From Paenibacillus swuensis (lineage in GTDB: Bacteria; Bacillota; Bacilli; Paenibacillales; DY6): a stretch of DNA of 64,000 nucleotides. Location: contig NZ_CP011388.1 in NCBI RefSeq assembly GCF_001644605.1, positions 582,501 through 646,500 of the forward strand, read 5' to 3'. Shown here piece by piece: positions 13,887 to 30,074 of this stretch (its first letter is position 1; each line of letters starts with the position of its first letter). A program made the position numbers and the translations under genes. The notes beneath the pieces are model-generated. The model was not told where the DNA came from. It saw nothing but the letters and a program-made list of their open reading frames with translations, and made no database searches.

Positions 13887-16169
13887 CTATGAGTGATGCA
13901 CACGGGCGAATTTCGTCGCCGCCACCATATTGCGCAAGGATGCAATCGTTTCACCGGCTCCGCGGGTTTTCAAACCGCAGTCCGGATTAATCCAGAACAA
14001 GCCTGGATCCAGCACACGTAAAGCGCGGTCAATCATGCTTGTCATTTCTTCCACGGCCGGCACCCTCGGACTGTGGATATCATATACGCCTAATCCGATA
14101 CCCAACGGGTAGGTGTTCGATTCGAAGCTATGAATCAGTTCGCCATGGCTGCGGGAAGATTCGATCGAAATAACATCGGCATCCATCGATTCGATCGAGT
14201 TCATCATGTCATGGAATTCGCAATAGCACATATGCGTGTGTATTTGCGTGGAAGGCTGCACTGTGCAGGTGGTCATCCGGAAAGCTTTCACCGCCCAAGT
14301 CAGATACTCGGCTTGATCCTTCTCCTTCAACGGCAGCCCTTCGCGAACCGCCGGCTCGTCAACCTGAATCATGCCGATACCCGAGCGCTCCAACGCTTCC
14401 ACTTCCTGCCTCAAAGCATAAGCCAACTGATAAGCAATCTGTTCCCGCGGCAGATCTTCACGGGTAAAAGACCAATTCATAATCGTAATCGGTCCGGTCA
14501 GCATCCCTTTCACCGGCCTTTGCGTCAAAGATTGCGCATACCTCGTTTCTTCAACGGTCATGCTCTCCGTAAAGGCCACATCTCCGTAAATAATAGGCGG
14601 CTTTACACAACGGGAACCATAGGATTGGACCCAGCCGTTCTGCGTAAACGCGAAGCCCTCAAGCTTCTCGCCAAAAAACTCAACCATATCCGTCCGCTCA
14701 AACTCCCCGTGAACGAGCACATCCAGTCCGATGTCTTCCTGCTCCCGAATCCATTCTCCAATCTGCTCACGGATGAAGTGATTGTACCGGTCAGGAGACC
14801 ACTCTCCTTTACGCCACAACAAGCGGGCTTTACGTACTTCAGCTGTTTGAGGGAAACTGCCGATTGTCGTGGTCGGAAGAAACGGCAGCTGCCATGTATC
14901 CCGTTGAATCGCATGGCGTTCTGAGAAAGGCAGACTTCGCACGAGAGGTTGCTTTAATATGCCTTTCACCGCCTGATGGATGTCGGCTCGATTCCGTTCG
15001 TCGGACAGTTGAATAGCCTTATGCGCTTGTTGACTTCTATCCATATGCTCACTAGTTAATGTGTCACTGTCGGCGGAAGCGGCCTTTGTCAGAAGGACAA
15101 GCTCGTCCAGCTTTTCGTCCGCAAAAGCCAGTGCGTTCTTGAGATGAGAACCAAGCTTAGCTTCATGGTCTACGGTCACGGGAACATGAAGTAAACTGCA
15201 GGACGATTGGATGATCAGGCTATCCTCTGAAACGTAACGGCTGATCTCATCGATGATTGCCTTCTTATCGTGAAGCGATGCCTTCCAAATGCTGCGTCCG
15301 TCGATGATGCCTGCGCCAAGTATTTTGCCTGTGGGAAAACCGTGAACTTGTAGCGCCTTCATATTTCCGGCATACCCGTGAACGAAGTCCAGCCCGATCC
15401 CTTGAACAGGTAACGCGACGATGTCGGAGTAATGTTCCAAGGACTCAAAGTACGTCTGCAGCATCACGTTCAAGTTTGGAGCGGAAGCCGTAAGCGTCTC
15501 ATAAATTCGCTTGAGCCTCGTCAAGTCGTCTTCGTCCAGCTTCGTTACGAGAATCGGCTCGTCCACTTGTACCCACTGCGCGCCTTCCGCGGACAATTCC
15601 TGAAGAACCCGCACATAAAGCGGGAGCAGCCGGTTAAGCCAGGAATCGATCTCGGAGGGATTGTATCCCTTGGACAACTTCAAGAAGGTTAACGGACCCA
15701 GGATGACCGGTTTACCCTCGATGCCAAGCTTCTCCTTGGCTTCACGGTAAGCGATCAAAGGTTTATTCTCTGTAAGCAGAGGCGATGTCCCGTTCAATTC
15801 CGGCACGATATAGTGATAGTTCGTGTTAAACCACTTCGTCATTTCACTAGCGGCCGCATCCTGCGTTCCACGGGCGATTCCGTAATAGACGGACAGGGGG
15901 ACCGCTCCGCCCTGATATGAAAACCGCTCGGGGACAATCCCGAACATCGCCGCTGTATCCAGCACATGATCGTAATAGGAGAAGTCATTGACAGGAATGA
16001 AATCCACTCCCTTCTCCTGCTGTTTACGCAAGTGTCCCAACCGAATGTCCTGCATCTGTTGTTGAAATTCATGTTCTTCAATCCGGCCCGACCAGAACGC
16101 CTCAAGCGCCTTCTTCCACTCCCGGTTCTCCCCGATCCGCGGATAGCCTAACACACTGCTTCTAACCAT
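13887..16169 (-). CDS. metE: Cobalamin-independent methionine synthase
   Basis: 760 residues, full length. It transfers the methyl group of 5-methyltetrahydropteroyltriglutamate to homocysteine in the cytoplasm. The zinc site is visible in HIHTHMCYCEFHD and later NPDCGLKTR; two homologous (beta/alpha)8 barrels are expected, starting with VLGYPRIGENREWKKALE. The ATG at 16169 follows AGAGGGG. The gene lies downstream of a LysR regulator on the same strand, with a predicted promoter and Met-box-like operator between them. I see no SAM riboswitch in the 116-bp leader. Confidence 0.98.
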   Translation of the reverse strand: MVRSSVLGYPRIGENREWKKALEAFWSGRIEEHEFQQQMQDIRLGHLRKQQEKGVDFIPVNDFSYYDHVLDTAAMFGIVPERFSYQGGAVPLSVYYGIARGTQDAAASEMTKWFNTNYHYIVPELNGTSPLLTENKPLIAYREAKEKLGIEGKPVILGPLTFLKLSKGYNPSEIDSWLNRLLPLYVRVLQELSAEGAQWVQVDEPILVTKLDEDDLTRLKRIYETLTASAPNLNVMLQTYFESLEHYSDIVALPVQGIGLDFVHGYAGNMKALQVHGFPTGKILGAGIIDGRSIWKASLHDKKAIIDEISRYVSEDSLIIQSSCSLLHVPVTVDHEAKLGSHLKNALAFADEKLDELVLLTKAASADSDTLTSEHMDRSQQAHKAIQLSDERNRADIHQAVKGILKQPLVRSLPFSERHAIQRDTWQLPFLPTTTIGSFPQTAEVRKARLLWRKGEWSPDRYNHFIREQIGEWIREQEDIGLDVLVHGEFERTDMVEFFGEKLEGFAFTQNGWVQSYGSRCVKPPIIYGDVAFTESMTVEETRYAQSLTQRPVKGMLTGPITIMNWSFTREDLPREQIAYQLAYALRQEVEALERSGIGMIQVDEPAVREGLPLKEKDQAEYLTWAVKAFRMTTCTVQPSTQIHTHMCYCEFHDMMNSIESMDADVISIESSRSHGELIHSFESNTYPLGIGLGVYDIHSPRVPAVEEMTSMIDRALRVLDPGLFWINPDCGLKTRGAGETIASLRNMVAATKFARVHHS

Positions 16170-16224
16170 CTTGTATACCCCTCTTCGAATGATTTTGATA
16201 AAAAAGGTAGTTGTTACAAGAAAG

Positions 16225-16253
16225 ATATCACGGAATGCCGGCTATAATGTAAA
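16225..16253 (-). promoter_or_regulatory. Predicted metE promoter
   Basis: Minus-strand -35 TTTACA (16253-16248) and a weak -10 TGATAT (16230-16225), 17 bp apart. The weak -10 fits a promoter needing an activator. Confidence 0.5.
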
Positions 16254-16273
16254 TCCATTAACCTATATCTGAT

Positions 16274-16290
16274 TATAGCTTCAGACTATA
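16274..16290 (-). promoter_or_regulatory. Met-box-like LysR operator
   Basis: The sequence TATAGCTTCAGACTATA is a perfect TATAG-N7-CTATA palindrome and differs at two positions from the streptococcal MtaR/MetR Met-box TATAGTTTnAAACTATA (known from comparative genomics). Its centre is about 64 bp upstream of the start site predicted from the -10, the usual activator position for LysR proteins. It overlaps the stop codon of the lysR-like gene. Confidence 0.7.
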
Positions 16291-17197
16291 CCAAAGCGGG
16301 ATGCAAAACCTGATGAAGCTCCTCAATATACGCCAGACCCAGCTTGGAAAGCGAGGCATTGCGATGGGAAATCCACCCGACATGAATCGTTTCATTGCAA
16401 TCCAGAGGAACCGGAATAATCTCATTGCCATTCAGATCCGCGCTTAGCACCCCTGTGGAAATCGTGTACCCGTTCACGCCGATGAGCAGGTTAAACAGCG
16501 TCGCCCGGTCGTTGACACGAATGCTTTTCCGATGGGTTAATGTGCTGAGAATTTCCTCCGAAAAATGAAAGGAATTGAAGTCTCCTTGGTCAAAAGAGAG
16601 ATAAGGATAATCCTCGAGCTGCTCGATGGTCACCACGGATTGCTTCGCGAGCGGATTGCGGATGCTGATGAATATATGCGGTTTGGCCGTAAATAAGGGG
16701 GTGAATTGCAGATTCTCGGTGCGCAGCAGCTTGTTGATTACTTTCTCATTAAACTCATTCAGGTAGAGGATGCCGATTTCACTGCGTAAACTTTTGACAT
16801 CCTCAATGATTTCGTAGGTCTTCGTCTCCCGCAATGCAAACTCATATTCGTCTTGGCCGTGATCCCGCACCAAATTTACAAAGGCGTTCACCGCGAACGC
16901 ATAATGTTGTGTAGATACGGAAAAATGCTGCGCTGAGGGCTTGGCATTAAGGTAACGGCTTTCCAGCAGCTCTGCCTGTTCGACGACCTGACGCGCGTAG
17001 CTTAGAAATTCCACACCCTCCTTGGAGAGCGAAATCCCTTTATTCGTGCGGTCAAAAATCGTAATGCGCAGCTCCACTTCCAGATCCTTGATGGAGTTGG
17101 ACAGACTGGGTTGGGAAATAAACAGCCGCTTGGATGCCTCGTTGATGGATCCTCTGTTCGCGACCTCGATCACATATTTGAGCTGTTGCAGCGTCAT
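16286..17197 (-). CDS. LysR family regulator, MtaR/MetR-like
   Basis: 303 residues. The N-terminal winged helix reads MTLQQLKYVIEVANRGSINE, then AASKRLFISQPSLSNSIKDL, followed by a linker helix and a periplasmic-binding-protein-type effector domain from about residue 90. The N-terminus closely follows the CpsY/MtaR style of Gram-positive methionine regulators. The ATG follows AAGGGGGA. It lies immediately upstream of metE, separated by the Met-box-like site, so control of metE is a reasoned inference. O-acetylserine, homocysteine or another precursor may be the effector; the sequence does not tell which. Confidence 0.88.
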   Translation of the reverse strand: MTLQQLKYVIEVANRGSINEASKRLFISQPSLSNSIKDLEVELRITIFDRTNKGISLSKEGVEFLSYARQVVEQAELLESRYLNAKPSAQHFSVSTQHYAFAVNAFVNLVRDHGQDEYEFALRETKTYEIIEDVKSLRSEIGILYLNEFNEKVINKLLRTENLQFTPLFTAKPHIFISIRNPLAKQSVVTIEQLEDYPYLSFDQGDFNSFHFSEEILSTLTHRKSIRVNDRATLFNLLIGVNGYTISTGVLSADLNGNEIIPVPLDCNETIHVGWISHRNASLSKLGLAYIEELHQVLHPALV

Positions 17198-17218
17198 TGG
17201 ATATCCCCCTTTGGCGAT

Positions 17219-17737
17219 CTAAATTAACTGTTTTATTAAATACAACAACAATTCATCATCCACCCTTACTGTCTCTCCCGGTCGGACTGCATTATTTCCA
17301 TACATCAGCCCCTCACCATCCAAGACATAACCTCTTTGACCGTACATTCTTTGCGCATTGCCGTAATCTTTATAAAGCCCTACACCTAGCCCAACATAAC
17401 TTGAATTCTCTGCCGCAATACCTTCTAATCTATCAAAAAGTGCTGATGCTATTCGTTTATTTCTGTACTGGGGAAACACGTTTAAATCGTTAATCTCGGG
17501 AATTTCCCTTGATACAAAATGAGGATACTTCGATATGTAAAGTAAATGACAGCAACCTGCCAGAATTCCGTCATAATAAGCTAATAGGGTTACTCTTGTG
17601 CCATTCTGATTTTCTTCTAGGCAACTCTCGTGATACCTGCTTTGCGTGAACCATGGATAATATTTTGCAAATTCCGTATTCAACATCTTTACTTCATTCA
17701 TCTCTGAAAGTTGCTTTATAGAAATTCTCTCATTCAT
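17219..17737 (-). CDS. GNAT family N-acetyltransferase
   Basis: 172 residues from the ATG at 17737, which follows AAGGAGAG; upstream in-frame codons have no ribosome binding site and would overlap the hemL leader. The acetyl-CoA loop appears as VFPQYRNKRIASALFDRLE and the C-terminal strand as YVGLGVGLYKDYGNAQRMYGQRGYV. An insert DGEGLMYGNNAVRPGETVRVDDE near the end is common in small-molecule GNATs. Substrate unknown. It ends 21 bp before the lysR start and may be co-transcribed with it. Confidence 0.85.
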   Translation of the reverse strand: MNERISIKQLSEMNEVKMLNTEFAKYYPWFTQSRYHESCLEENQNGTRVTLLAYYDGILAGCCHLLYISKYPHFVSREIPEINDLNVFPQYRNKRIASALFDRLEGIAAENSSYVGLGVGLYKDYGNAQRMYGQRGYVLDGEGLMYGNNAVRPGETVRVDDELLLYLIKQLI

Positions 17738-17875
17738 GAAGGCACTCTCCTTATATGAAGTGACTAAAATGCACCTCATTATAGCATTTTTTGCTAATTG
17801 GTATGGCGCGGTGGGAGAGGACTGTTCTTTTTGATACAATGAAATACAGCAGGTCAGAGGAAGGATGTTGTCACA

Positions 17876-19189
17876 ATGATTCGCACGCAATCGGAAAAAC
17901 TGTATTCACAGGCATTGGAACATATCGTCGGCGGGGTTAATTCCCCTTCCCGTTCCTTCAAGGCGGTGGGCGGCGGCGCCCCCGTCTTTATGAAACGCGC
18001 CCAAGGCGCCCACTTCTGGGACGTGGACGACAACAAATACATTGATTATCTCGCCGCTTACGGGCCGATTATTACAGGACACGCGCATCCGCATGTTACG
18101 GAAGCGATCGTGCGCGCGGCGCAGAACGGGACGTTGTACGGCACGCCGACGGAACTCGAAGTCGTGTTCGCGCGGATGCTGAAGGACGCCGTCCCGTCCA
18201 TGGACAAGGTCCGCTTCGTCAACTCCGGCACGGAGGCCGTCATGACCACAATCCGCGTGGCCCGCGCCTATACGAAGCGGCACAAGATCATCAAGTTTGC
18301 CGGGTGTTACCACGGCCACTCGGACCTGGTGCTCGTCGCCGCGGGCTCCGGCCCGTCCACGCTGGGCATCCCCGACTCCGCGGGGATCCCGCCAAGCATC
18401 GCCCAGGAGGTCATTACGGTGCCCTTCAATGACCTGGACGCGCTCCGCGAAGCGCTTGAGCGCTGGGGCGACGACATTGCCGCGGTGATGGTCGAGCCGA
18501 TCGTCGGCAACTTCGGCATGGTCATGCCCCACGTCGGTTACCTCGAGGGGCTGTGCCGGCTGGCGCGTGATAACGGCTCACTTGTCATCTACGATGAAGT
18601 GATCAGCGCGTTCCGCTTCCATTACGGCACAACGCAAACCTATGCCGCGGCGTTCAGCGATTTCGCCGCGATCGAGCCGGATCTTACCGCGCTCGGCAAG
18701 ATCATCGGCGGCGGACTGCCGATCGGCGCTTACGGCGGCAAGAAGCACGTGATGGAGCAAGTGGCGCCGCTCGGCCCCGCGTACCAAGCAGGCACGATGG
18801 CCGGCAACCCGGCCTCCATCTCGGCGGGCATCGCCTGCCTGGAGGTGCTGGGGCATCCGGGCGTGTACGACGCGATGGAAGCGTTGGCCGCGCGGTTGGC
18901 CGGCGGCATCGCGGAGTCTGCGCGCCGGCATGATGTGCCGCTGACGGTCAACCGCATCGGCGGCGCGTTCTCGACGCACTTCTGCGCAGGCAGCGTCACG
19001 AACTACGAGGAAGCGCAGGCTTCCGACGGGGAGCAGTTCGCCCGCTTCTTCCGGGCGATGCTGGAGCGGGGCGTGTGCCTCGCCCCGTCGAAGTATGAGG
19101 CGTGGTTCCTGACCACGGCGCATACGGATGCGGACATTGATTACACGCTGGAAGCGGCGGATCAGGCGTTTGCTTCGATGCGAGGATAA
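17876..19189 (+). CDS. hemL: Glutamate-1-semialdehyde 2,1-aminomutase
   Basis: 437 residues, class III PLP aminotransferase fold. It makes 5-aminolevulinate from glutamate-1-semialdehyde in the C5 tetrapyrrole pathway. HemL hallmarks: [35 protein letters not shown], the gate loop [16 protein letters not shown], and the PLP lysine in [17 protein letters not shown]. It stands alone rather than in a hemAXCDBL operon, suggesting it may be the second (GsaB-type) copy found in many Bacillales. Its body is strikingly GC-rich (43 of 60 bases are G/C at 18841-18900) compared with neighbours near 48-50%. Confidence 0.95.
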
Positions 19190-19197
19190 CAAAAAAA

Positions 19198-19239
19198 AGC
19201 GAGTCTCCGGGTTTGTTTAAACTTCGGGACTCGCTTTTC
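19198..19239. terminator. Bidirectional terminator between hemL and ADP-ribosylglycohydrolase gene
   Basis: Stem AGCGAGTC...GACTCGCT with an inner GTTT/AAAC pairing, flanked by an A-run and a T-run. Confidence 0.85.
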
Positions 19240-19261
19240 TAGTTAAACTCTGCCTATTCGA

Positions 19262-20689
19262 CTAGGCTTTCACCGTGAAATTCTGGGTATCCCCTTGCAC
19301 GCTTCTTTCACGTACGGCATCCTTTGGAACGGAGGCGCGCACAATACGGCTCATCTGGTACATTCGTTCGGCAAACGCGCTAATTCGGGTCTCTTTCTCA
19401 CCGGCAACTGTAGTATAGAACGTATCGTTGACCGGCTTTAGCCATTTATCAGGAATATTGCGGTATCCGGCCATGACGCCTGCCAAACAACCTGCGGTTG
19501 CTCCCGCACTGTCACAGTCCCATCCCTGCATAACCTGTGTGCATATTATTTTTTCGAAATCAACGTGTCCATACGAATCGACCCCATGAACCAAGGAATT
19601 GACGACAGAACAGCTTTCGTTAAATGTGCCGTTAAAGCCAAGATATCCCCATTTTTGATCAATTCTGTCGTACACTTTATGCCAATCCTTCTCTTCTATG
19701 GACCATTCCAAAGCCTCTCTCATACAAGCTGCATACCGGGAATGCCGCGGTAATTGATTGATGCCTGCTTGCACGACCTTAACCGGGTCTTGTTCATGAA
19801 ATGCTGCGGCAAGGGAAGCCGCAACCCACATTTCGGCGTACAAGCCTGTCTTGGCATGCGTAAGGCGCCCGTCCCGCCAGGCCATATCTGCCGCCAATGC
19901 CATCCTTCCGGGATTCACAAGACCGAAGGAATCCCCCCGAATCATCGCGCCGATCAACTCCTCGCCGTCGTTAAACAAAGCTACAAATTGATCCCATTCC
20001 TTCCCTACAGGCAAACTGTTGTAATGGTTCCACCATAAATTGGTTAATAGGCAGTATCGCGTATGCTCCGGCCCCCAGTTCCAGCCGTAAGGGATATTCT
20101 CCTTCCACAATGAGGCCATATCTTGTGTCCGAAATGCCGCGCCGTATTGCTCCAGCACTTTTAATCCCAACACCATATAGTTCAAATCATCGTCAGCCTG
20201 CACATGGGTCACGAAACCCTTCGTACTTTCCATGCAATCACGGCGTACCGGGCTTACTTGACTAGGGCTATAGGCAGGGACGAAATCCCGCAACGGCCAT
20301 GCGTCAACCCCTTCCAGGTAAGAGCGGATGTCCTTTAAAGTCCAGCCCATCTCCAATGGCTTGCCTAGAATGCACCCCAACATTTTTCCATATACGCCGC
20401 CATAGATCTTATCCCGTATTTCCATCTCATTAATATAAAGTGTTGCTTCGTCCTCTCGGTTCAGCGGTCGTTCCTCCCGGATTTCTTCCAGATGGTTTGG
20501 TTCATGATATGGAAAGTCTCCGCGCATCGGTACGTCGATGATTGAATTTCCAAATTCGAGTAATGCATCGTAACTGTCGGGTATTTGGTCAAGCTTCTCC
20601 TGCAAGCCTAGTATTTCATGACCTTGGGTTTCAAGCATGGAGATTCGATTGGAGCATGTTTTGCGAAGCTCAGAATATGGGATTAACAA
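19262..20689 (-). CDS. ADP-ribosylglycohydrolase-fold protein
   Basis: 475 residues: about 90 extra N-terminal residues, then the all-helical ARH/DraG fold. Recognisable motifs are GGVYGKMLGCILGKPLEMGW, the metal-site stretch QADDDLNYM and the C-terminal DCDSAGATAGCLAG. The first metal motif is DDDL where classical members have DDT, and the last is DxDS rather than DxDT, so activity on ADP-ribose is uncertain. Family members that lie in sugar-use clusters are common and mostly untested. The start is a TTG at 20689 placed eight bases after AGGAGG. It is 33 bp downstream of the glycosidase-like gene, clearly one operon. Confidence 0.85.
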   Translation of the reverse strand: MLIPYSELRKTCSNRISMLETQGHEILGLQEKLDQIPDSYDALLEFGNSIIDVPMRGDFPYHEPNHLEEIREERPLNREDEATLYINEMEIRDKIYGGVYGKMLGCILGKPLEMGWTLKDIRSYLEGVDAWPLRDFVPAYSPSQVSPVRRDCMESTKGFVTHVQADDDLNYMVLGLKVLEQYGAAFRTQDMASLWKENIPYGWNWGPEHTRYCLLTNLWWNHYNSLPVGKEWDQFVALFNDGEELIGAMIRGDSFGLVNPGRMALAADMAWRDGRLTHAKTGLYAEMWVAASLAAAFHEQDPVKVVQAGINQLPRHSRYAACMREALEWSIEEKDWHKVYDRIDQKWGYLGFNGTFNESCSVVNSLVHGVDSYGHVDFEKIICTQVMQGWDCDSAGATAGCLAGVMAGYRNIPDKWLKPVNDTFYTTVAGEKETRISAFAERMYQMSRIVRASVPKDAVRERSVQGDTQNFTVKA

Positions 20690-20722
20690 TAGTAACGCCT
20701 CCTATGAAATATATAGTTAATG

Positions 20723-22888
20723 TTATTGAACCGTAATTTTTACATCACCGTGATCTCTGTAGTGTTGAGCCCCAATGATGAACGACTCTCGGTGTTTAAG
20801 TCCGATACTCGTATCCATCTCAACCTGTTTCCAAGGAAGCCTCACATCAATCTCCTCCGGCAAACGGCCCTTCTCATGAAAATGAATGAAGAGTTCAACT
20901 TTACCTTCATCAACGCAATGAATTTGAACATCGACCGGTCCGAAGCTTGTTGGCATTTTTAACACTTCAATCGGAGACGTAAGCTCCATCCATTCAGGAG
21001 GAACCCCTTCCCCCACGATAAGCGTCCGATCTTTCTCATACAGGATCAGATCACGGAGCAGCAAGAAAAGTTCTGACGATACCCATCCGTGCGGATGACG
21101 GGAAGGCAACTTGTACCAACCTTCAATGGTGCTCCAAAACTCGGCTACATCATGATTGTCTTCGAGCCAACCGAATAAATTATTCACATAATGGTGCTCC
21201 AAATAATAATGGACTGTCTGCAGCGCCTTCTCCGCATCACCTAAAAGCAGATAATTATGCGCCTGACCTAGTTCAAAATATTTCCATAACGGTTCCGGAT
21301 TATAGGCGGCTTTCCCTTGCAAACGGTTTTTCTGCCACCAGGATTCAAATTTCTCCTGCACAAACACGTCGTCAGGCGAGAAGGCTTGGGTTGGCCAAAT
21401 CGCGCACGTGACATCGCGCTCATTGTCTCCGAAAGCAGAACGTCCATATTCGCGCAGCGCTTCCTGAATCTGAATTGCCTCTTCCTTGTATCGCGCGCCG
21501 TCATCTTTCAAACCTAATGCCTCTGCCAATTCGCTGATTGCCTTAAGTCCGAGATGAGCAAACCCGTTTACCCATATGACTGGAATATGTCCATCCATCC
21601 GTCCTTGAATTAATCCGTCTTTGGCAGGCTCGCAAACCAAATCCATATTGGCAGAACTTCTTTGATTCGGCAAACGCATTTCCACATCATAATAGTGATA
21701 CTCGGTTGTTTTCCTAAGCTTGACAATCCATTCGGCTCGCTCACGTAACGAAGGATAGACTTCTTCCAGCCATACCCTGTCCCCCCTTAGCAGATAATGC
21801 GTATAGTACGGCCAAATTCCCTCTCCGAAAGCGTCCCCTTCCGCACCGAATCCTCCCGCGAAGATTCGATCCTTCATACGTTCCAATTGTATTCTTACTT
21901 CATCGTGGAAACCTGCTTTATCCAAGGCATTCACTATATACACGCAGTCCCTTAACCAGAATAACGGATAAGTAATCGTAGCGATTCGGGCATCATGATC
22001 CACGCATGCAATCAACATTTGTGCCAAAATAGAATAGTACGCGTTAGTGTAACGAGCATCTGGAAGTTGAACCGTAACCTTCTTCAAGTTAGCTTCCCAA
22101 TATTGCTTTACTTTCCCAAGCTTCAGTTCATACGGCTGTTCATGGTACTGTTCAAAACGTGAAAGGTAATCGTATTCCATCGGATGCACAAAGAAATTAA
22201 ATTCAAACTCCTTCTCTTCCCCGGGTTTTAATTCAAGTGAATACCTAAATGCGCCGCTGCACAAGCCTTGTGAGTCCTCAACCCGGTCTTCAACCGGAAG
22301 CGTTCCTCCGCGGAGGAATTCCGAAATCTCCTTACCATCCCGATCAAATCCGCTGGTACCTATGTCTATCGGGGGCTGGTCAGCCAGCATCACGGTGTAA
22401 CCGTTTATATCCGCTCGGCCCTTCATGTTCATAGCCATGCTTCTGATTTGGCCGCCTGCCGGGCCGTAGCAACGCAGCACAACAAACATAGAAACTTTCG
22501 AGACCGCTTCACCCTTGTTCGTCACGTGAATTTTCAACGTATTAACGATATTTTGCAAATCATACACGCTCTCCGCAAATAGCTGTTGCTGAACTTGGAT
22601 GCCCGCGGCTTTCCATGTACTGTTGAGAATTGGCAAATAACCATCTTCCCACGCCCAATGCAGCCGATCCAGGGAGAATTCCTCCGGGGCATGTAATTTG
22701 TCGGCCATAGGGTCGTATATCCACAGGCTTACTCCGAATGTGCCGGCACCGGGAGAGAAACTGCCTCCAGGCTCGACAAACGTCTTCCTATGATCACGAC
22801 TGTGCGGCAATCCAATGACCGTGTGCTGATCGGATCTCGGCGGAATCCAATTCGGGTGCGAATCCAGCAAATCCTTTAGACGACTCAT
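20723..22888 (-). CDS. Glycosidase-like protein with beta-sandwich and (alpha/alpha)6 barrel
   Basis: About 721 residues from the ATG at 22888; a GTG seven codons upstream (22909) is possible, but the GAAGAAGGGA box sits between the two. The N-terminal ~270 residues look like a beta-sandwich; the rest has helical toroid motifs such as ITYPLFWLRDCVYIVNALDK, FGEGIWPYYTHYLLRG, WVNGFAHLGLKAISELAEAL and a closing WVSSELFLLLRDLILYE. This order is found in GH15/63/65/78-like enzymes acting on alpha-linked sugars. No signal peptide, so an imported oligosaccharide is the likely substrate. I cannot assign a GH family. Operon with the ARH-fold gene and probably regulated by the AraC gene upstream at 23053. 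Confidence 0.85.
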   Translation of the reverse strand: MSRLKDLLDSHPNWIPPRSDQHTVIGLPHSRDHRKTFVEPGGSFSPGAGTFGVSLWIYDPMADKLHAPEEFSLDRLHWAWEDGYLPILNSTWKAAGIQVQQQLFAESVYDLQNIVNTLKIHVTNKGEAVSKVSMFVVLRCYGPAGGQIRSMAMNMKGRADINGYTVMLADQPPIDIGTSGFDRDGKEISEFLRGGTLPVEDRVEDSQGLCSGAFRYSLELKPGEEKEFEFNFFVHPMEYDYLSRFEQYHEQPYELKLGKVKQYWEANLKKVTVQLPDARYTNAYYSILAQMLIACVDHDARIATITYPLFWLRDCVYIVNALDKAGFHDEVRIQLERMKDRIFAGGFGAEGDAFGEGIWPYYTHYLLRGDRVWLEEVYPSLRERAEWIVKLRKTTEYHYYDVEMRLPNQRSSANMDLVCEPAKDGLIQGRMDGHIPVIWVNGFAHLGLKAISELAEALGLKDDGARYKEEAIQIQEALREYGRSAFGDNERDVTCAIWPTQAFSPDDVFVQEKFESWWQKNRLQGKAAYNPEPLWKYFELGQAHNYLLLGDAEKALQTVHYYLEHHYVNNLFGWLEDNHDVAEFWSTIEGWYKLPSRHPHGWVSSELFLLLRDLILYEKDRTLIVGEGVPPEWMELTSPIEVLKMPTSFGPVDVQIHCVDEGKVELFIHFHEKGRLPEEIDVRLPWKQVEMDTSIGLKHRESFIIGAQHYRDHGDVKITVQ

Positions 22889-23003
22889 TATTCTACATCC
22901 CTTCTTCACGCTTCTGCGTTAATTCGTATCTCTGTTATCAATGTACAAGAAGACGTGCAGGAACACAGTACGCAAAAGGCAGAAGTTATTATCATATCGG
23001 AAC

Positions 23004-23034
23004 AAAAAAAAGGACCCTGTTGATTACAGGATCC
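23004..23034 (-). terminator. Intrinsic terminator after AraC regulator
   Basis: Minus-strand stem GGATCCTG/CAGGGTCC followed by an eight-T run. Confidence 0.9.
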
Positions 23035-23052
23035 CGGTGGTCATATCATGCC

Positions 23053-23934
23053 TTATAATGGTTCTTTGGGCGCCAAGCTTATCTGCATTCGATACTCCAA
23101 CGGCGTAATACCCATCTCCTTCTTAAACCATTTATAAACATATTGAATGCTGGACAGCCCCAACAGATCAGCCATTTGTTCAATGGGAATGATTGTATCC
23201 GCCAGTAATAATTTGGCCTTTCGCAGTCTAATGCTGGATATCAATTCCGCTAATGTTTCCCCTTTCTCTTCCTTATACAAACGAGATAAATATTTAGGAT
23301 GATAAAAGAAATGCTGTGCCACCAACTCTACGGTAATTGAATTGGAAATATGCGCCTCTACATACCGCTCAATTTCGGATAACACTTGACGGTTACGTTC
23401 TGATTTGTTCCAACTCGCGGGGATTTGTTTCGACGGGTTATCATTTACTTTACGATATAACTTAATATAAATTTCGCGAAGAATTCCGTCGATTACTGAC
23501 AAATATCCTGCCTGCTGGGCCACAATTTCCCGACAAATGTCCTCAAACCTAGTTTGGATTCTTGAATGTCGATGAAATGAATGCCGGCCCTTCCACTCCT
23601 TCGTAAACGCATTTAATCGTTCTGCTCCCGCTCCATCATGTCGGATCATTAGAAACATTAACTCAAACGGAACATCCGCATCGTGTGTTTCAAAGTGAGG
23701 TGTGCCGGGAGGGATGACAAACAGATCACCGGCATGGGCCTCATAAGTCTCTCCGCCGATCTGATAAATGCCCGTTCCTTGAAAGACATAGCCGATTTCC
23801 AACTCCTCATGGGTATGCATCTCACATTCCCACCGATCCTTGGCTTCCGCCAAATGCATATAGATGCATTGAAGCTCAGTCCCCCAGAAACATTCGTCCA
23901 GTTCGGACGACGTCAGATGAGTTTGTCTAATCAT
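23053..23934 (-). CDS. AraC family regulator with cupin sensor
   Basis: 293 residues. The N-terminal cupin has CEMHTHEELEIGYVFQGTG and HAGDLFVIPPGTPHFETHDAD, with metal-type histidines. The C-terminal DNA-binding part carries ITVELVAQHFFYHPKYLSRL and PIEQMADLLGLSSIQYVYKW, ending GITPLEYR. The start is behind AAGGAGGGAGA. It is followed on the same strand by the glycosidase-like/ARH operon after a terminator, making it the best candidate for that operon's activator. It begins 26 bp after the exporter gene at 23961 and may share its transcript. Confidence 0.9.
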   Translation of the reverse strand: MIRQTHLTSSELDECFWGTELQCIYMHLAEAKDRWECEMHTHEELEIGYVFQGTGIYQIGGETYEAHAGDLFVIPPGTPHFETHDADVPFELMFLMIRHDGAGAERLNAFTKEWKGRHSFHRHSRIQTRFEDICREIVAQQAGYLSVIDGILREIYIKLYRKVNDNPSKQIPASWNKSERNRQVLSEIERYVEAHISNSITVELVAQHFFYHPKYLSRLYKEEKGETLAELISSIRLRKAKLLLADTIIPIEQMADLLGLSSIQYVYKWFKKEMGITPLEYRMQISLAPKEPL

Positions 23935-23960
23935 GTTATCTCCCTCCTTGTGCTTGGAGC

Positions 23961-24899
23961 TTAAGCGCTCTCCTTCGTTACTGCGTCAACCTCATGCGGT
24001 ACCGCCTGTTGTCCGTTACTGCGGATAAACAACCAAACGCCGCCGATCAATAAAACACCCGCACCCAGTTGAATAGCGGTCAACGCTTCGCCCAGCAGGA
24101 AATACGCCAGAATCGTCGCCCCGATCGGCTCTCCCAGAACGGACATGGACACTGATGTGGCATCCATATATTTCAGCAGCCAATTAAAGATGTAATGTCC
24201 CAAAATCGTCGGAACTACAGCCAAAAGGGCGAATACGCCCCAGTCGACCGCCTTATATCCAAAGAAGGCGTAACCCTGTATCAGGCTGTAGAGCGCCAGC
24301 ACTCCGCCCGCCACCGCAAACACAGCAAAACTGTAGCTTACAGAAGACAGCTTGGAACGCAAGCTTTGCCCCAGAATCATATGCAGCGCGACAGCCGCCG
24401 TTCCGAGCACGGACAGCAAGTCACCTTGGAGTGCCTGGGGAGACAGTCCCCAATCCCCCCAACCGATGGCAATCGCGCCAACGACAGCAACAGCCATCCC
24501 TATGATTCGGGATAAGGAAGACCGTTGTTGAAATGCCCAGTACGAACCCAGCATCACCATGACCGGCTCCAAAGCCATAAAGGCGGTAGACGAGGCGACT
24601 GAGGTATATCGAAGCGATTCCATCCATAGCAGAAAATGAAGACCCAACGCGGCGCCGGATCCAACCAACAAACCGGTCGCTTTCCCTCCGAGAGTGAACA
24701 TTTCCGAACCTTTCCTCCATACAAAAGGGAGCATCAGCACATTCGTCATCCACAGACGGTACATCGCCATGATGGCTACCGGCGCGGCGGACCATTTTAC
24801 AAAAATGGAAGAAAAGGAAATGGCAATAATAGCTACGGCCAATATGAACATTAAAAGTAGAGGATTTAATCTGGACTGAGGTATAGAATTAGGTTTCAA
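23961..24899 (-). CDS. EamA/DMT family transporter
   Basis: 312 residues with ten predicted membrane helices in two EamA halves (first half begins LLMFILAVAIIAISFSSIFVKW; second contains GDLLSVLGTAAVALHMILGQ and ends with LGAGVLLIGGVWLFI). DMT proteins usually export amino acids, nucleosides or metabolites. The start is a TTG at 24899 after AAGGAGAAAG; the spacing is long (about 11 nt) but no better start exists. Substrate unknown. Confidence 0.88.
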   Translation of the reverse strand: MKPNSIPQSRLNPLLLMFILAVAIIAISFSSIFVKWSAAPVAIMAMYRLWMTNVLMLPFVWRKGSEMFTLGGKATGLLVGSGAALGLHFLLWMESLRYTSVASSTAFMALEPVMVMLGSYWAFQQRSSLSRIIGMAVAVVGAIAIGWGDWGLSPQALQGDLLSVLGTAAVALHMILGQSLRSKLSSVSYSFAVFAVAGGVLALYSLIQGYAFFGYKAVDWGVFALLAVVPTILGHYIFNWLLKYMDATSVSMSVLGEPIGATILAYFLLGEALTAIQLGAGVLLIGGVWLFIRSNGQQAVPHEVDAVTKESA

Positions 24900-24945
24900 A
24901 ATGTGCGCTTTCTCCTTCAGATCACTTAGATTCCACTATTGTACT

Positions 24946-24978
24946 AAAAAAAGCGCTCATCGGGGAGATGAACGCTTC
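24946..24978 (-). terminator. Intrinsic terminator after inositol-monophosphatase-family gene
   Basis: Minus-strand stem AAGCGTTCATC/GATGAGCGCTT followed by a T-run. Confidence 0.85.
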
Positions 24979-24991
24979 ACATTATATAAAA

Positions 24992-25855
24992 TTAGGATTT
25001 CGTTGCATCCTGAAGGGCTTGTGATAACGAGTCATGAATGCGGCCATTCGTGGTCAGAATGTTACGTACGCCGAGATGGTACGGATTGCCCTCAATATCG
25101 GTCACCTTGCCGCCCGCTTCCTGGATGAGCAGCGTACCGGCAGCCAGATCCCAGCTGCTTAGATTCATCTCCCAGAACCCGCTTAATCGTCCGGCAGCTA
25201 CATAAGCCAAGTGCAAAGCGGCCGATCCTCCCGCCCGGATGTTACGGACTTGCGGGGCCACCGCTTGCAATTGCGCCATGTTCGCCGGATAGGCTGTGAC
25301 AGGGTCCGCCGGAAATCCGGTTGCAAGTAAGCTGTCACTGAGCGTTGTTTCCTCTGAAACAGCTAACGTCCGATTACGAAGATAAGCTCCCTTGCCTTTC
25401 TCCGCCACAAATAATTCATCTCTTGAAGGATCATAAATCACGCCTACAATGACTTCGCCTTTATGGGCAAGCGCGATGGAGACCGAGTAGAACGGAAATT
25501 GGTGAACGTAGTTGGTTGTACCGTCAATGGGATCGACAATCCATAAATATTCCGCGGCGCTTACCTTCTCCAAAGCTTTCCTTGAAGCTTCCGGTCCCGC
25601 CTCCACCCCCTCCTCGCCAAGAAAAGCGTGATCGGGAAAGTGTGTCAACACCAGGTTGCGAATCAGCGCTTCGGCCCCCTTATCCATTTCCGTAACCAGA
25701 TCCTGCCGTGAGTATTTCGTATCTAAATGGGTGTATGTGCCCAGCTTGCTCTTGATCCATTCTCCGGCTTTGGCCGCGCAGTTAACCGCAACCGCCGTAT
25801 AGCTCTTGCTGCCGACTACATAAGGTACGGCCTTCTGATCCCCTACAGGTATCAT
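24992..25855 (-). CDS. Inositol monophosphatase family protein
   Basis: 287 residues. The magnesium/lithium-dependent phosphatase motifs are complete: FLGEEGVEAG, WIVDPIDGTTNYVHQFPFYS and SSWDLAAGTLLIQEAGG. Members hydrolyse inositol-1-phosphate, fructose-1,6-bisphosphate, 3'-phosphoadenosine 5'-phosphate or NADP; sequence alone does not decide which. The ATG at 25855 lies six bases after GGAAGGGGGA. Cytoplasmic, single-gene unit with its own terminator. Confidence 0.93.
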   Translation of the reverse strand: MIPVGDQKAVPYVVGSKSYTAVAVNCAAKAGEWIKSKLGTYTHLDTKYSRQDLVTEMDKGAEALIRNLVLTHFPDHAFLGEEGVEAGPEASRKALEKVSAAEYLWIVDPIDGTTNYVHQFPFYSVSIALAHKGEVIVGVIYDPSRDELFVAEKGKGAYLRNRTLAVSEETTLSDSLLATGFPADPVTAYPANMAQLQAVAPQVRNIRAGGSAALHLAYVAAGRLSGFWEMNLSSWDLAAGTLLIQEAGGKVTDIEGNPYHLGVRNILTTNGRIHDSLSQALQDATKS

Positions 25856-25952
25856 TTACATTCCCCCTTCCACAAGTTTTACATCGTAATGTATACGCCT
25901 CAAACAGCAAATCGTTTCATTTCTATATATATCGGATGCTTTAAACTGGAAA

Positions 25953-26774
25953 TTAAGCCCAATTCAAGCCTTCCGCGATCGTTTTGGCCGCAACACCCAG
26001 CATGGATATCCGCAATATCCATAGGAGTCCTTTGCCGCTCATCTTTCCAGCAATCCATGCGCCCAGCTTCCCTCCAAGCCATGCCCCCGGTGCAAGCGCG
26101 GCTACGCTCAGCCAATCCACGTCCCCGTTAAACATGTGCACGGAGCTGCCCAGAATGGAGGAGAAGAAGATGACGAACATGGATGTGGCCGTGGCAATAT
26201 GAGCCGGGTACCCGAACAGGATTACCATGACCGGCACGAATAAAGAACCGCCGCCGATTCCGAACAGGCCCGAGACCAACCCTACGAAGAATCCCAGAAT
26301 CAGAGCGGCAGCCACGGAATAACCGTAGGTGTACGTATGATTTTGGGCATCCGTAAACGATCTCTTAATGCTCCAGTGAATGTCCAAAGGCTTGATGTAA
26401 TCCCTGGCGATGAGCAGTCCTGCCATAGTCAGCATAAAAAAACCGAAAATTAATTGAAACCGATCGGGATTCAGCACGCCGGTCAAAGCCGCACCCACCA
26501 TGGATGCCGGTCCGCTTGCCGCAAAGTAGAGCCAACCGCCCTTATAGTCGATTTTCTTCTGTTTGCGAAATACCAGTGTCGATGATAAGGCGGTGATAAT
26601 CAGCACCGTCAGGGAGGTGCCCACGGCTTCGGTTGCCGTATAAGCGCGATTCAGCAGTGAGGGGCCCAAATACATGAGCGCCGGCACTGTAATGATTCCC
26701 CCGCCCAGCCCCACAACACTGCCAAACGTCGCTGATAGGATGCCGATAAGTAACAGGAGCAGTATGGTAAGCAT
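25953..26774 (-). CDS. TSUP (TauE/SafE) family membrane transporter
   Basis: 273 residues with about eight membrane segments and the twin TSUP glycine motifs: FGSVVGLGGGIITVPALMYLG near the N-terminus and VSGLFGIGGGSLFVPVMVIL in the second half. The family exports sulfite, sulfoacetate or related organosulfur anions; the substrate here is unknown. The start follows AAGAAGG. It is a lone gene divergent from the exopolysaccharide arm starting at 26964. Confidence 0.9.
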   Translation of the reverse strand: MLTILLLLLIGILSATFGSVVGLGGGIITVPALMYLGPSLLNRAYTATEAVGTSLTVLIITALSSTLVFRKQKKIDYKGGWLYFAASGPASMVGAALTGVLNPDRFQLIFGFFMLTMAGLLIARDYIKPLDIHWSIKRSFTDAQNHTYTYGYSVAAALILGFFVGLVSGLFGIGGGSLFVPVMVILFGYPAHIATATSMFVIFFSSILGSSVHMFNGDVDWLSVAALAPGAWLGGKLGAWIAGKMSGKGLLWILRISMLGVAAKTIAEGLNWA

Positions 26775-26963
26775 GAGGGACCTTCTTTCGGGATGAATGA
26801 TTATGTTTATAGTACCATAGCAAGGGTTTGCGCGGCTGAATTTTACAGTATATCCGTATCTTAAAGCCTATACCGCTGTTTTGTGCCTATGATATAATAA
26901 TAGTTAGTAAAATTTAGTGAATTGCTTAATGTTTATTCCAGAAACTAGGAATGGGGTGTGGAC

Positions 26964-27536
26964 ATGTTCGGAAACTATAAGCGACTGATTGAACGTTATA
27001 GAGAAGAGCGTATTTACATCTCTGAATTAGTATTCTCCCGTCTGGATGAGCCTCATGAATTTTATTTATTTCTGGCTGATTTCCATTGCGAGATCCGGGT
27101 ACCTGTAGAATCGGTATTATCGATGAAACGTATACGTTCACGGGAAGAGACGCTCTATCATATCTCCGTAAGCCACGGAGGGGATCTGCTATTGATTGTT
27201 GATCATAACCGGGGCAACCATTATATATATTGCAAGCGCGAGAGTTATACCCGCTTATTGAAGCATCATAACCTCGGCACGGACAGCATTCAAACTGGCG
27301 CCCTGGCTTGGGTTGCAGTTTCCCAAGAGCCCGTTGAGGCGAATTCTAACAACTTTCCTTCCAATGAACCGGTTACCGAGAACCAGGTGTTCCAAGAGGA
27401 GCCGACGGTTAGCACGGGATCCGCCTCTAACCGTTTGCCTTTACCTCCAAGAGCGAACAGGCACAGCAATGACCGAATGCTCTCCTTTCGTACAGCCACT
27501 CAATATATCCAAAGCTTTTTTACTTATTTTTTCTAA
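26964..27536 (+). CDS. Uncharacterised protein, first gene of the Wzz/BY-kinase arm
   Basis: 190 residues from the ATG at 26964 (a GTG two codons upstream is also possible; both follow AGGAATGGGG). No signal peptide, no membrane helix. The N-terminal ~110 residues are charged and compact (RYREERIYISELVFSRLDE, then SHGGDLLLIVDHNRGNHYIY); the remaining 80 are low-complexity Ser/Asn/Pro-rich and likely disordered, ending in an aromatic FFTYFF. I recognise no family. It stops 27 bp before the wzz-like gene, so a role in exopolysaccharide control or assembly is inferred from position only. A -10-like TATAAT lies at 26893-26898 without a clear -35. Confidence 0.75.
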   Translation: MFGNYKRLIERYREERIYISELVFSRLDEPHEFYLFLADFHCEIRVPVESVLSMKRIRSREETLYHISVSHGGDLLLIVDHNRGNHYIYCKRESYTRLLKHHNLGTDSIQTGALAWVAVSQEPVEANSNNFPSNEPVTENQVFQEEPTVSTGSASNRLPLPPRANRHSNDRMLSFRTATQYIQSFFTYFF

Positions 27537-27563
27537 ACAGCATGTTGTGATCGGGAGAGAGTT

Positions 27564-28268
27564 ATGAAAGCTATTCAAGTAAGTGAATTTCTGGCCCTGA
27601 TTAGAAAGCGACTCGGGCTCATCGTTCTTGTGACCGTTATAAGTTCATTAACATCCGCGTATATCACTATGTTCCACATTACGCCTATATACTCTAATAG
27701 CTGTACCCTACTCGTAAATGAACAGAGTAATTCAACCGACAGCGCTCTTCGTTTCGATGATATTCTCCTTTATGAGAAACTGTTGGGTACGTACAAGGAC
27801 ATTCTTAAGAGCAACCGGATTTTGAAACCTGTCACCCAATGGTACGGCCATGGTTTGACACCGGAAGAACTGGCGAGTTTAACTCAAATTACCACGAATG
27901 TGAATTCCCAGGTCATTACGATCTCTGTCCGGTTCCATGACTATAAAGCGGCAACCGACTTAACGAACTACATAGCATTAACCTTTAAAGATAATCTGCA
28001 AGACATTATGTCGGTGGATAATGTACAGATTTTAGATGAAGCCGAACTGAGAGACAACCCTTCTCCTGTAAGTCCTAACTTTATTCTAAACATGGCGGCC
28101 TCGGTGTTCCTGGGCTTGTCCACATCCGTTGCGTTCATTTGGCTCAGCTATGTCATGGATTCCAGAATTAAGAGTGAAGATGATTTAAAGGACTTATTAA
28201 GTTATCCGCTTCTGGGTTCTGTGCCTTCCTATCCGAAATCCACCCGTAATCAAACCATGCATCGCTAA
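27564..28268 (+). CDS. Polysaccharide co-polymerase / Wzz-type protein (EpsA/YveK-like)
   Basis: 234 residues with the Wzz layout: two membrane segments at about 17-37 and 172-196 flanking an extracytoplasmic helical region, and a short cytoplasmic C-tail (DSRIKSEDDLKDLLSYPLLGSVP) of the type that touches a partner tyrosine kinase. It controls chain length or secretion in Wzy-dependent polysaccharide systems and activates the kinase encoded 11 bp downstream. Same size and gene order as B. subtilis epsA-epsB. Confidence 0.92.
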   Translation: MKAIQVSEFLALIRKRLGLIVLVTVISSLTSAYITMFHITPIYSNSCTLLVNEQSNSTDSALRFDDILLYEKLLGTYKDILKSNRILKPVTQWYGHGLTPEELASLTQITTNVNSQVITISVRFHDYKAATDLTNYIALTFKDNLQDIMSVDNVQILDEAELRDNPSPVSPNFILNMAASVFLGLSTSVAFIWLSYVMDSRIKSEDDLKDLLSYPLLGSVPSYPKSTRNQTMHR

Positions 28269-28279
28269 CAGGAGCCCTC

Positions 28280-28921
28280 ATGAGACGAAACAATACACTA
28301 TCAAGTTCGCTTCACCCCAACGATTACGAAACACCTATTACGGAAGCTTACCGGACCATACGCACCGCCATTAAATTCGCCGCCGAAGATCAGAGCCGTA
28401 AGGTTCTGTTATTCTGCAGCTCTATTCCCGGTGAAGGCAAGACTTCCATTATAGCGAATCTGGGAAGGTTGTTTGCCCAGGATCATAAAGCGGTTCTGTT
28501 GCTGGACGGCGATTTGCGTCGGCCCCATCTACATTCCTTATTCGCGTTAAATAACCGTACAGGGCTGAGCTCTATATTATTGGGTTATTCCAACCCTGAA
28601 GAATCCGTGCAGTCAACACAGATTCCTAATCTGTCCGTTCTGACCGCAGGTCCGATCCAGCCCAATGCCGCCGAGTTGTTAGGCTCGCCTCGGTTAGAAG
28701 AAACCCTTTCCCTGCTTAAAGATGCCTATGACATTATCCTTGTTGATGCTCCCTCTTTATTAACCGTTTCCGATGCTCAGTTGCTGGCTCAGGTAGCCGA
28801 CGGCATCGTTCTCGTCATCAGAAGTCAGGTCACCCACAAAGAACAACTAATAAAGGCTCAACAGTTTCTTGAGCCTTTCCGTCCTAAAGTATTGGGCGCT
28901 ATCCTTAACGACCGCTCTTAA
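28280..28921 (+). CDS. BY-type tyrosine kinase (EpsB/CpsD-like)
   Basis: 213 residues. P-loop ATPase with Walker A SSIPGEGKTS (~47-56), Walker A' LLLDGDLRRP (~76-86) and Walker B IILVDAPS (~154-161). BY-kinases work with a Wzz-type activator and steer exopolysaccharide synthesis through autophosphorylation. The usual C-terminal tyrosine cluster is missing: the protein ends VLGAILNDRS straight after the fold. The 3' end overlaps the convergent aminotransferase gene by 17 bp. Confidence 0.92.
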   Translation: MRRNNTLSSSLHPNDYETPITEAYRTIRTAIKFAAEDQSRKVLLFCSSIPGEGKTSIIANLGRLFAQDHKAVLLLDGDLRRPHLHSLFALNNRTGLSSILLGYSNPEESVQSTQIPNLSVLTAGPIQPNAAELLGSPRLEETLSLLKDAYDIILVDAPSLLTVSDAQLLAQVADGIVLVIRSQVTHKEQLIKAQQFLEPFRPKVLGAILNDRS

Positions 28922-30074
28922 TCTCGCTTCTCCGCCTCTTATATATGGTCTTCATGCTTTCGATAACCCGCTCCATATCCGCATCGGTCATCCCCGTCCC
29001 GGAAGGGAGGCACAAGCCTGTGTGATAAAGCCGATCCGATGTTCCGGTCTGTCCATGACGGTAATAGCGGCATCCTTCGAATAAAGGTTGCGCATGAAGC
29101 GGTTTCCAAACAGGTCTGGACTCAATATGGAGTTCAGCCAGCGCATGAACGAAATCAAGCGCGGTTAATCCGCATGCTTCGGGATCGATGGTCAGCGTAG
29201 TCAGCCAGCGGGTGCTCCGCCCATAGGAACATTCGGGCATAAATATGAAGCCGTCCAACTTGCCCAAGGCTTGTCGGTAAGACTCGAAAATCTCCCTTTT
29301 GCGCGCGACACGATCATCCAGCACTTTCAGTTGACCTTGACCTACCCCCGCCAACACATTGCTCATTCTGTAATTGTAACCTGATTCCTTGTGCTCATAA
29401 TGAAGACATTGCTCTCTGGCTTGTGTAGCCCAGAACCGGGCTTTCTCCAGGTCCTCCAAGCGATCCGATACCAGCATGCCTCCGCCTGAGGTGGTTATAA
29501 TCTTATTGCCGTTGAAGGAATAGATGCCGTATCGCCCCAAGGTACCGCTGGCTTTTCCTTTGTAGTGAGCGCCCAGAGACTCAGCCGCATCTTCAATAAC
29601 AGAAACTCCGTACCGGTTACAAAGCTCCAGAATGGGATCATAATCCGCACTCTGCCCATATAGGTTCACCACTACCACCGCTTTAGGCAAGACGCCTGCT
29701 CGGTACGCATCATATAACGCTTCCTCAAGCGCAACTATGGACATATTCCACGATTCCGGATCGGAGTCGATAAAGACGGGAGTTGCGCCTAATTGAACAA
29801 TAGGATTGGCGCTTGCGACAAACGTAAGACTGGAACAGAACACGGTATCCCCGGCTTGTACGTCCGCTAACCTTAGCGCCAGATGTATAGCCGATGTGCC
29901 TGAGTTTAAAGCAACGGCCCCCGCGGCACCTGCATACTCCGCAACCGCTTGTTCAAACGCGTTTAACTGTGGACCGACCGTAGAGATCCAATTCGTAGCA
30001 AATGCCTTTTGCACGAACGCCTCTTCATATCCGCTCATATGGGGAGCCGATAAGTAAATCCGGTTCTCATGCAT
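28905..30074 (-). CDS. DegT/DnrJ/EryC1 PLP aminotransferase (PglE/EpsN-like)
   Basis: 389 residues from the ATG at 30074, seven bases after GGGAGG; this start overlaps the previous stop in ATGCATGA. The N-terminus RIYLSAPHMSGYEEAFVQKA resembles B. subtilis EpsN and Campylobacter PglE. The PLP lysine lies in FNGNKIITTSGGGML and the aspartate in VIEDAAESLGA. Expected reaction: transamination of UDP-4-keto-6-deoxy-GlcNAc to the 4-amino sugar, from glutamate, in UDP-bacillosamine synthesis. The dehydratase (38518) and acetyltransferase (30067) of the same route are in this cluster. Last gene of the minus-strand arm. Confidence 0.92.
   Translation of the reverse strand: MHENRIYLSAPHMSGYEEAFVQKAFATNWISTVGPQLNAFEQAVAEYAGAAGAVALNSGTSAIHLALRLADVQAGDTVFCSSLTFVASANPIVQLGATPVFIDSDPESWNMSIVALEEALYDAYRAGVLPKAVVVVNLYGQSADYDPILELCNRYGVSVIEDAAESLGAHYKGKASGTLGRYGIYSFNGNKIITTSGGGMLVSDRLEDLEKARFWATQAREQCLHYEHKESGYNYRMSNVLAGVGQGQLKVLDDRVARKREIFESYRQALGKLDGFIFMPECSYGRSTRWLTTLTIDPEACGLTALDFVHALAELHIESRPVWKPLHAQPLFEGCRYYRHGQTGTSDRLYHTGLCLPSGTGMTDADMERVIESMKTIYKRRRSEIKSGR

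Follow-up and report, generated by a model that had tools for sequence, protein, structure and literature searches.

Gene organization of the locus

The window, a stretch of 64,000 nucleotides of Paenibacillus swuensis DNA (contig NZ_CP011388.1, positions 582,501 to 646,500), carries on its minus strand a gene for a glycosidase-like protein (GH) and a gene for an ARH-fold protein, which lie behind a gene for a cupin-AraC regulator. In window positions, the features of the locus are as follows:

19188-19242, both strands: hairpin terminator acting in both directions, located between the ARH gene and a convergent aminotransferase gene (z -5.9 and -5.7)
19262-20689, minus strand: gene for the ARH-fold protein (475 aa; TTG start behind AGGAGG)
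20723-22909, minus strand: gene for an unclassified glycosidase-like protein (728 aa as listed)
23011-23035, minus strand: intrinsic terminator between the AraC gene and the GH-ARH pair (10 bp stem, T8, z -3.4)
23053-23934, minus strand: gene for the cupin-AraC regulator (293 aa; AraC-binding cupin and HTH_AraC domains)

The GH and ARH open reading frames were found where the original prediction, made from the sequence alone, had placed them, with a gap of 33 bp. The 728-aa frame opens with GTG at 22909, but the likely start of the glycosidase is the ATG at 22888 (721 aa); that of the ARH gene is likely the TTG at 20689 behind AGGAGG. The AraC gene had been assigned to the same operon, and its adjacency holds: an orthologue also adjoins the pair in genome G057, in divergent orientation. 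The shared operon does not hold, because the AraC gene has its own terminator (23035-23011) and is therefore a separate unit, leaving a transcription unit that consists of the GH-ARH pair only and is closed by the hairpin at 19188-19242. The convergent gene beyond this hairpin (17876-19189), which is glutamate-1-semialdehyde aminotransferase-like, has a GC content of 64% (82% at third positions) versus a window mean of 49.5% and may be a recent acquisition.

The ARH-fold protein belongs to a long-form subfamily

The 475-aa product matched PF03747 (ADP_ribosyl_GH) with an E value of 9.9e-40 and 137.4 bits against a gathering cut-off of 26.2, in agreement with the predicted ARH fold. Since the match begins at residue 97, the predicted N-terminal extension of ~90 residues (1-96) is real. 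Residues of the metal site are E113, A165-D166-D167-D168 and D391-C392-D393-S394; the corresponding motifs are E...SDDT...DSDS in ARH1 and E...[T/S]DDT...DTDT in ARH3 (PMC6309922). Both aspartate motifs had been called altered, and this proved correct for one of them: window ARH has A165-D166-D167-D168 (the DDDL of the original prediction) instead of the canonical [T/S]-D-D-T of ARH1, ARH3 and DraG, in alignment columns where shorter relatives carry T-D-D-T, whereas its D-C-D-S is an ordinary C-terminal D-x-D-[S/T] metal motif. Thirteen long-form homologues have in common the extension with an invariant E63-P64, as well as E113, D166-D167-D168, D391 and D393; the DDD motif and the extension are thus traits of the whole long-form subfamily and are not peculiar to the window gene. 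A second ARH protein of this genome (734 aa; L053:8314-10518, G000:C1 ~224.8-227.0 kb) gave a weak match to a mannanase-type galactose-binding domain, and its gene lies directly behind a cupin-AraC gene.

These data bear on the possibility that the protein is a conventional hydrolase of ADP-ribosyl-proteins or ADP-ribose conjugates, located beside a glycosidase gene by chance or for regulation. Such an enzyme would be expected to score far above the PF03747 cut-off and to keep E113 together with the DD pair and DxDS ligands, and window ARH does both, sharing with DraG, ARH1 and ARH3 the domain, the conserved Glu, the DD pair and the DxD[S/T] ligands. It differs from all three in its 90-residue extension, in ADDD for [T/S]DDT, in GC for GD ahead of LG in the conserved-Glu motif and in its catabolic gene context. 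We nevertheless regard this possibility as improbable: the [T/S]DDT motif has become ADDD; the protein scored 29.8 bits with the DraG equivalog TIGR02662 (ADP-ribosyl-[dinitrogen reductase] hydrolase), for which the cut-off is 337; no ADP-ribosyltransferase was recognised beside the pair; and glycosidase and sugar-transporter neighbours recur, as described below. The PADLOC anti-phage defence models matched neither the ARH protein nor the glycosidase, which also argues against an ADP-ribosyl hydrolase and led us to reject a defence role for the pair.

The glycosidase-like partner has a predicted (alpha/alpha)6 fold

No Pfam family matched the 728-aa protein above cut-off, searches of PDB sequences yielded no significant match, and the NCBIfam GH15-like model oligosac_amyl gave 36.7 bits against a cut-off of 820.7, so that the protein does not qualify as GH15 by profile. 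An AlphaFold2 model computed with 19 homologues reached a pLDDT of 89.8 and a pTM of 0.92 (with three sequences, pLDDT was 52.6) and predicted a beta-supersandwich, an (alpha/alpha)6 barrel and C-terminal strands, an arrangement similar to GH15, GH94, GH116 and GH78; the model thereby supports the (alpha/alpha)6 assignment of the original prediction. The top Foldseek matches were GH94 phosphorylases over the whole length (E 2e-17, TM ~0.57, 12% identity), followed by dextran dextrinase, GH116 enzymes including the exo-beta-D-arabinanase ExoMA2, glucodextranase and a bacterial glucoamylase. In VIA-align, the Z scores of GH78, GH15-type barrels, GH65 and GH94 differed by only a few units; the Z of 25.1 to 1lf6 (527 residues, rmsd 3.8) is consistent with the supersandwich plus (alpha/alpha)6 fold of GH15, and the GH116 structures 8ic6 and TxGH116 matched at 12-14% identity. 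The modelled protein resembles GH15 glucoamylase and glucodextranase and the GH94 phosphorylases in architecture but differs from them in that identity to all structural matches was 17% or less, in the absence of a Pfam match and in a score far below the cut-off of the GH15-like NCBIfam model. As no family stands out among the fold matches, it looks like a member of an unclassified (alpha/alpha)6 family of sugar enzymes.

Invariant among 17 glycosidase homologues were R320-D321 (within W-x-R-D), E357, D359, D439 (within G-x-M-D) and E583. On the basis of position and conservation, D439 is a candidate general acid and E583 a candidate base; the W-x-R-D motif is one that we take to resemble GH15. 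Hydrolysis by this protein is not certain, because its nearest Foldseek matches, along the whole length, are GH94 phosphorylases. That it is instead a GH65/GH94-type disaccharide phosphorylase, with the ARH protein acting on its product, is nonetheless a reading to which we give little credence, given that the invariant E583 sits at a possible position for the base of an inverting hydrolase, that the W-x-R-D motif seems GH15-like, and that VIA-align ranked GH78 and GH15-type hydrolases slightly higher, with identity to all of these at or below 17%.

The pair recurs, and DUF2961 alternates with ARH

Close homologues of the glycosidase were restricted, among 395 genomes of the order, to the window's genome, G057 and G291. 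A single-sequence search of genome contigs for the glycosidase returned no loci, a search of the contigs with a three-row profile returned 20 loci from several phyla, and later searches added L206; none of the plasmids searched carried the gene. The neighbourhoods of 23 distinct glycosidase loci (G291 being L059) were then compared by a six-frame profile scan. An ARH gene was found in the same gene run at 5 of the 23 (the window, L038, L060, L064 and L206). In G057 the AraC (45% identity), GH (53%) and ARH (70%) orthologues occur together, with 4 bp between GH and ARH, and the genes are contiguous in GH-then-ARH order in G057, L064 and L206; in L060 the pair members share one gene run with a transporter. 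These ARH partners fall in three deep lineages of the GH tree (window and G057; L064 and L206; L060). With a PF03747 density of ~1.1 per genome, the chance of at least five ARH neighbours is ~1e-9 if the loci are independent and ~2e-5 if three lineages are counted.

The original prediction proposed a survey of gene neighbourhoods and would have been undermined by a random adjacency not seen elsewhere. Most ARH genes in relatives do stand apart from a gene for this glycosidase, as adjacency without joint function would imply, but recurrence in three deep GH lineages in the same order indicates that the pair is not a chance adjacency and already contradicts this explanation, to which we assign a very low probability.

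Two further arrangements were seen. In L060, a single 540-aa open reading frame (L060:2397-4019), the first gene of the importer-GH run, combines a LacI helix-turn-helix, the extension and an ARH domain, the last in place of the sugar-sensor domain. In L208 (7221-8816, 9874-12138), on a distant GH branch, an ARH gene lies ~1 kb upstream of GH on the same strand, and its product has a signal-peptide-like N-terminus.

DUF2961 was present at 11 of the 23 glycosidase loci (L054, L056-L059, L062, L063, L066, L069, L071, L073) and never together with ARH (0/23); neither was found at the remaining 7, of which 3 lie on short contigs or contig ends. Pfam confirmed PF11175 (DUF2961) in L059 (E=3e-95), L066 (6e-43) and the unpaired L043 (4.5e-84), the calls in all other loci resting on a profile built in this analysis, and a profile scan of window positions 14001-30000 detected no DUF2961. 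The mutual exclusion of ARH and DUF2961 gave a p value of ~0.02 (0.024) uncorrected for relatedness and partly follows clades, and the alternation is thus suggestive only. DUF2961 corresponds to GH172, an alpha-D-arabino/fructofuranosidase family (PMC8605356, PMC10115798), some members of which are exo-alpha-D-arabinofuranosidases (PMC10115798). In L056 and L057 an apiosidase-like gene, of a furanose-related family, adjoins the glycosidase.

Transporters and secreted enzymes around the pair

No importer lies beside the pair in the window, as originally predicted; this absence is local and does not extend to the whole genome. Behind the pair, G057 carries genes for two permeases, a solute-binding protein and a secreted GH39-like protein that includes an F5/8C domain, so that an oligosaccharide ABC importer is contiguous with the pair, and the cluster also holds a GH42 beta-galactosidase. 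Orthologues of the importer, GH39-like and two-component genes of G057 were located in the window's genome 1.5 Mb from the pair, at G000:C1 ~2.094-2.103 Mb; identities are 65% for the GH39-like protein, 63-64% for the permeases, 51% for the binding protein, and 46% and 44% for the sensor kinase and the response regulator, respectively. Since the same gene set occupies two loci here and one in G057, the cluster was either split in this genome or joined in G057. In L206, the genes around the pair encode AraC proteins, a GH29-type fucosidase and a GHL6 protein.

Long-form ARH genes were also found with CUT1 sugar importers and ribokinase in Deinococcus, Mycolicibacterium and Agrobacterium, with ribokinase at L051, and, in three genomes of the order (L047, L048, L052), directly behind a nucleoside hydrolase of the inosine-uridine type and a BMP-type ABC importer; some lie behind cupin-AraC genes. 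Such neighbourhoods fit catabolism of ribosides and related furanosides and lend support to the reading that we rank second, in which the ARH protein hydrolyses ribosides or nucleosides, freeing ribose from nucleoside-like or N-linked ribosides, while the (alpha/alpha)6 protein does no more than remove a sugar decoration from that molecule. We consider this reading unlikely for the window protein, as the homologues in nucleoside operons belong to another ARH clade and neither a nucleoside hydrolase nor a ribokinase accompanies the pair in the window, G057, L064 or L206.

A clade test rejected the idea that the GH-paired ARH proteins form one clade; 4 of the 5, those of the window's clade, belong to a clade of six that also includes proteins from Deinococcus (L104) and Paenibacillales (L003). 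At L104 of Deinococcus aetherius, a gene for a 370-aa protein without a Pfam match (L104:6889-8001) shares one base with the start of the ARH gene and is followed by a ribokinase and a second ARH gene. As the 370-aa protein is weakly like the barrel (hhalign probability 30%), it was treated as a lead and left out of the pair count.

Proposed function and related systems

The original prediction favoured a novel sugar-processing enzyme over an ADP-ribose hydrolase. Half of its metal-motif argument has fallen, but the gene context (importers, secreted glycosidases and the GH172 partner) speaks for it, and the pair probably serves to degrade an unusual sugar and not to reverse the ADP-ribosylation of proteins. 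As a specific form of this reading, we favour by a narrow measure that GH-ARH is a cytosolic two-gene catabolic unit for an imported furanose-containing oligosaccharide, with the ARH protein acting as a metal-dependent furanosidase. The secreted GH39-like glycosidase, encoded at the second locus, would release the oligosaccharide, an lplB/ytcP-type ABC importer would take it up, and the two cytosolic proteins would cut it to monosaccharides. The (alpha/alpha)6 protein would be an exo-glycosidase whose candidate acid and base are D439 and E583, respectively, and the ARH-fold protein a binuclear-metal hydrolase of an alpha-linked furanoside of the ribo-, arabino- or fructofuranose type, filling the role held by the unrelated GH172 beside the same glycosidase in other bacteria. 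The AraC protein would sense an inducer from its own transcription unit. The substrate class, catalytic residues, furanosidase activity and regulation are those that we infer from genes and models.

ARH1 and ARH3 cleave only alpha-linked ADP-ribose, i.e. alpha-ribofuranosides (PMC6309922), and together with the exchange of GH172 as partner this makes it economical to suppose that the ARH protein supplies the furanosidase step. Against the scheme, the first Ser/Thr metal ligand is Ala in window ARH, and mutation of any single metal ligand abolishes the activity of ARH1 and ARH3 (PMC6309922); the added Asp (D168) may compensate for the lost ligand. The 7 glycosidase loci that carry neither partner also count against it. 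More tentatively, and with less confidence than in the catabolic unit, we suggest that the ARH-fold protein may itself be a sugar glycosidase, namely a binuclear-metal alpha-furanosidase, and that it replaced, or was replaced by, GH172 beside an undescribed GH family.

The closest known system is that of Microbacterium arabinogalactanolyticum, in which ExoMA1 (GH172) and ExoMA2 (GH116, an (alpha/alpha)6 beta-D-arabinofuranosidase) cooperate in the cytosol after ABC import (PMC10509167). By analogy, both systems would pair two cytosolic exo-enzymes behind an ABC importer, an (alpha/alpha)6 barrel with an N-terminal beta-sandwich and a furanosidase; the window pair differs in that its barrel protein matches no Pfam family and that an ARH-fold protein takes the place of GH172. 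A GH183 endo-arabinanase was not recognised here. The DFA I synthase/hydrolase operon of Bifidobacterium dentium (GH172, GH32 and ABC transporter; PMC8605356) likewise joins a regulator, a furanosidase, a second glycosidase and an ABC importer, but its second glycosidase is GH32 instead of an (alpha/alpha)6 protein and it has no ARH protein. Among open-licence papers, none whose title or abstract describes an enzyme pair of the GH-ARH kind came to light.

Bacteria commonly encode PF03747 proteins, and the name usually given to these is ADP-ribosylglycohydrolase. If the furanosidase reading is true, ARH would hold a carbohydrate-catabolic branch with the DDD metal motif as its mark, and there would be a new metal-dependent way of cutting furanoside bonds; if one large PF03747 branch processes furanosides, many annotations would be misleading. 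That ARH and GH172 alternate next to one unclassified glycosidase makes the furanoside reading directly testable.
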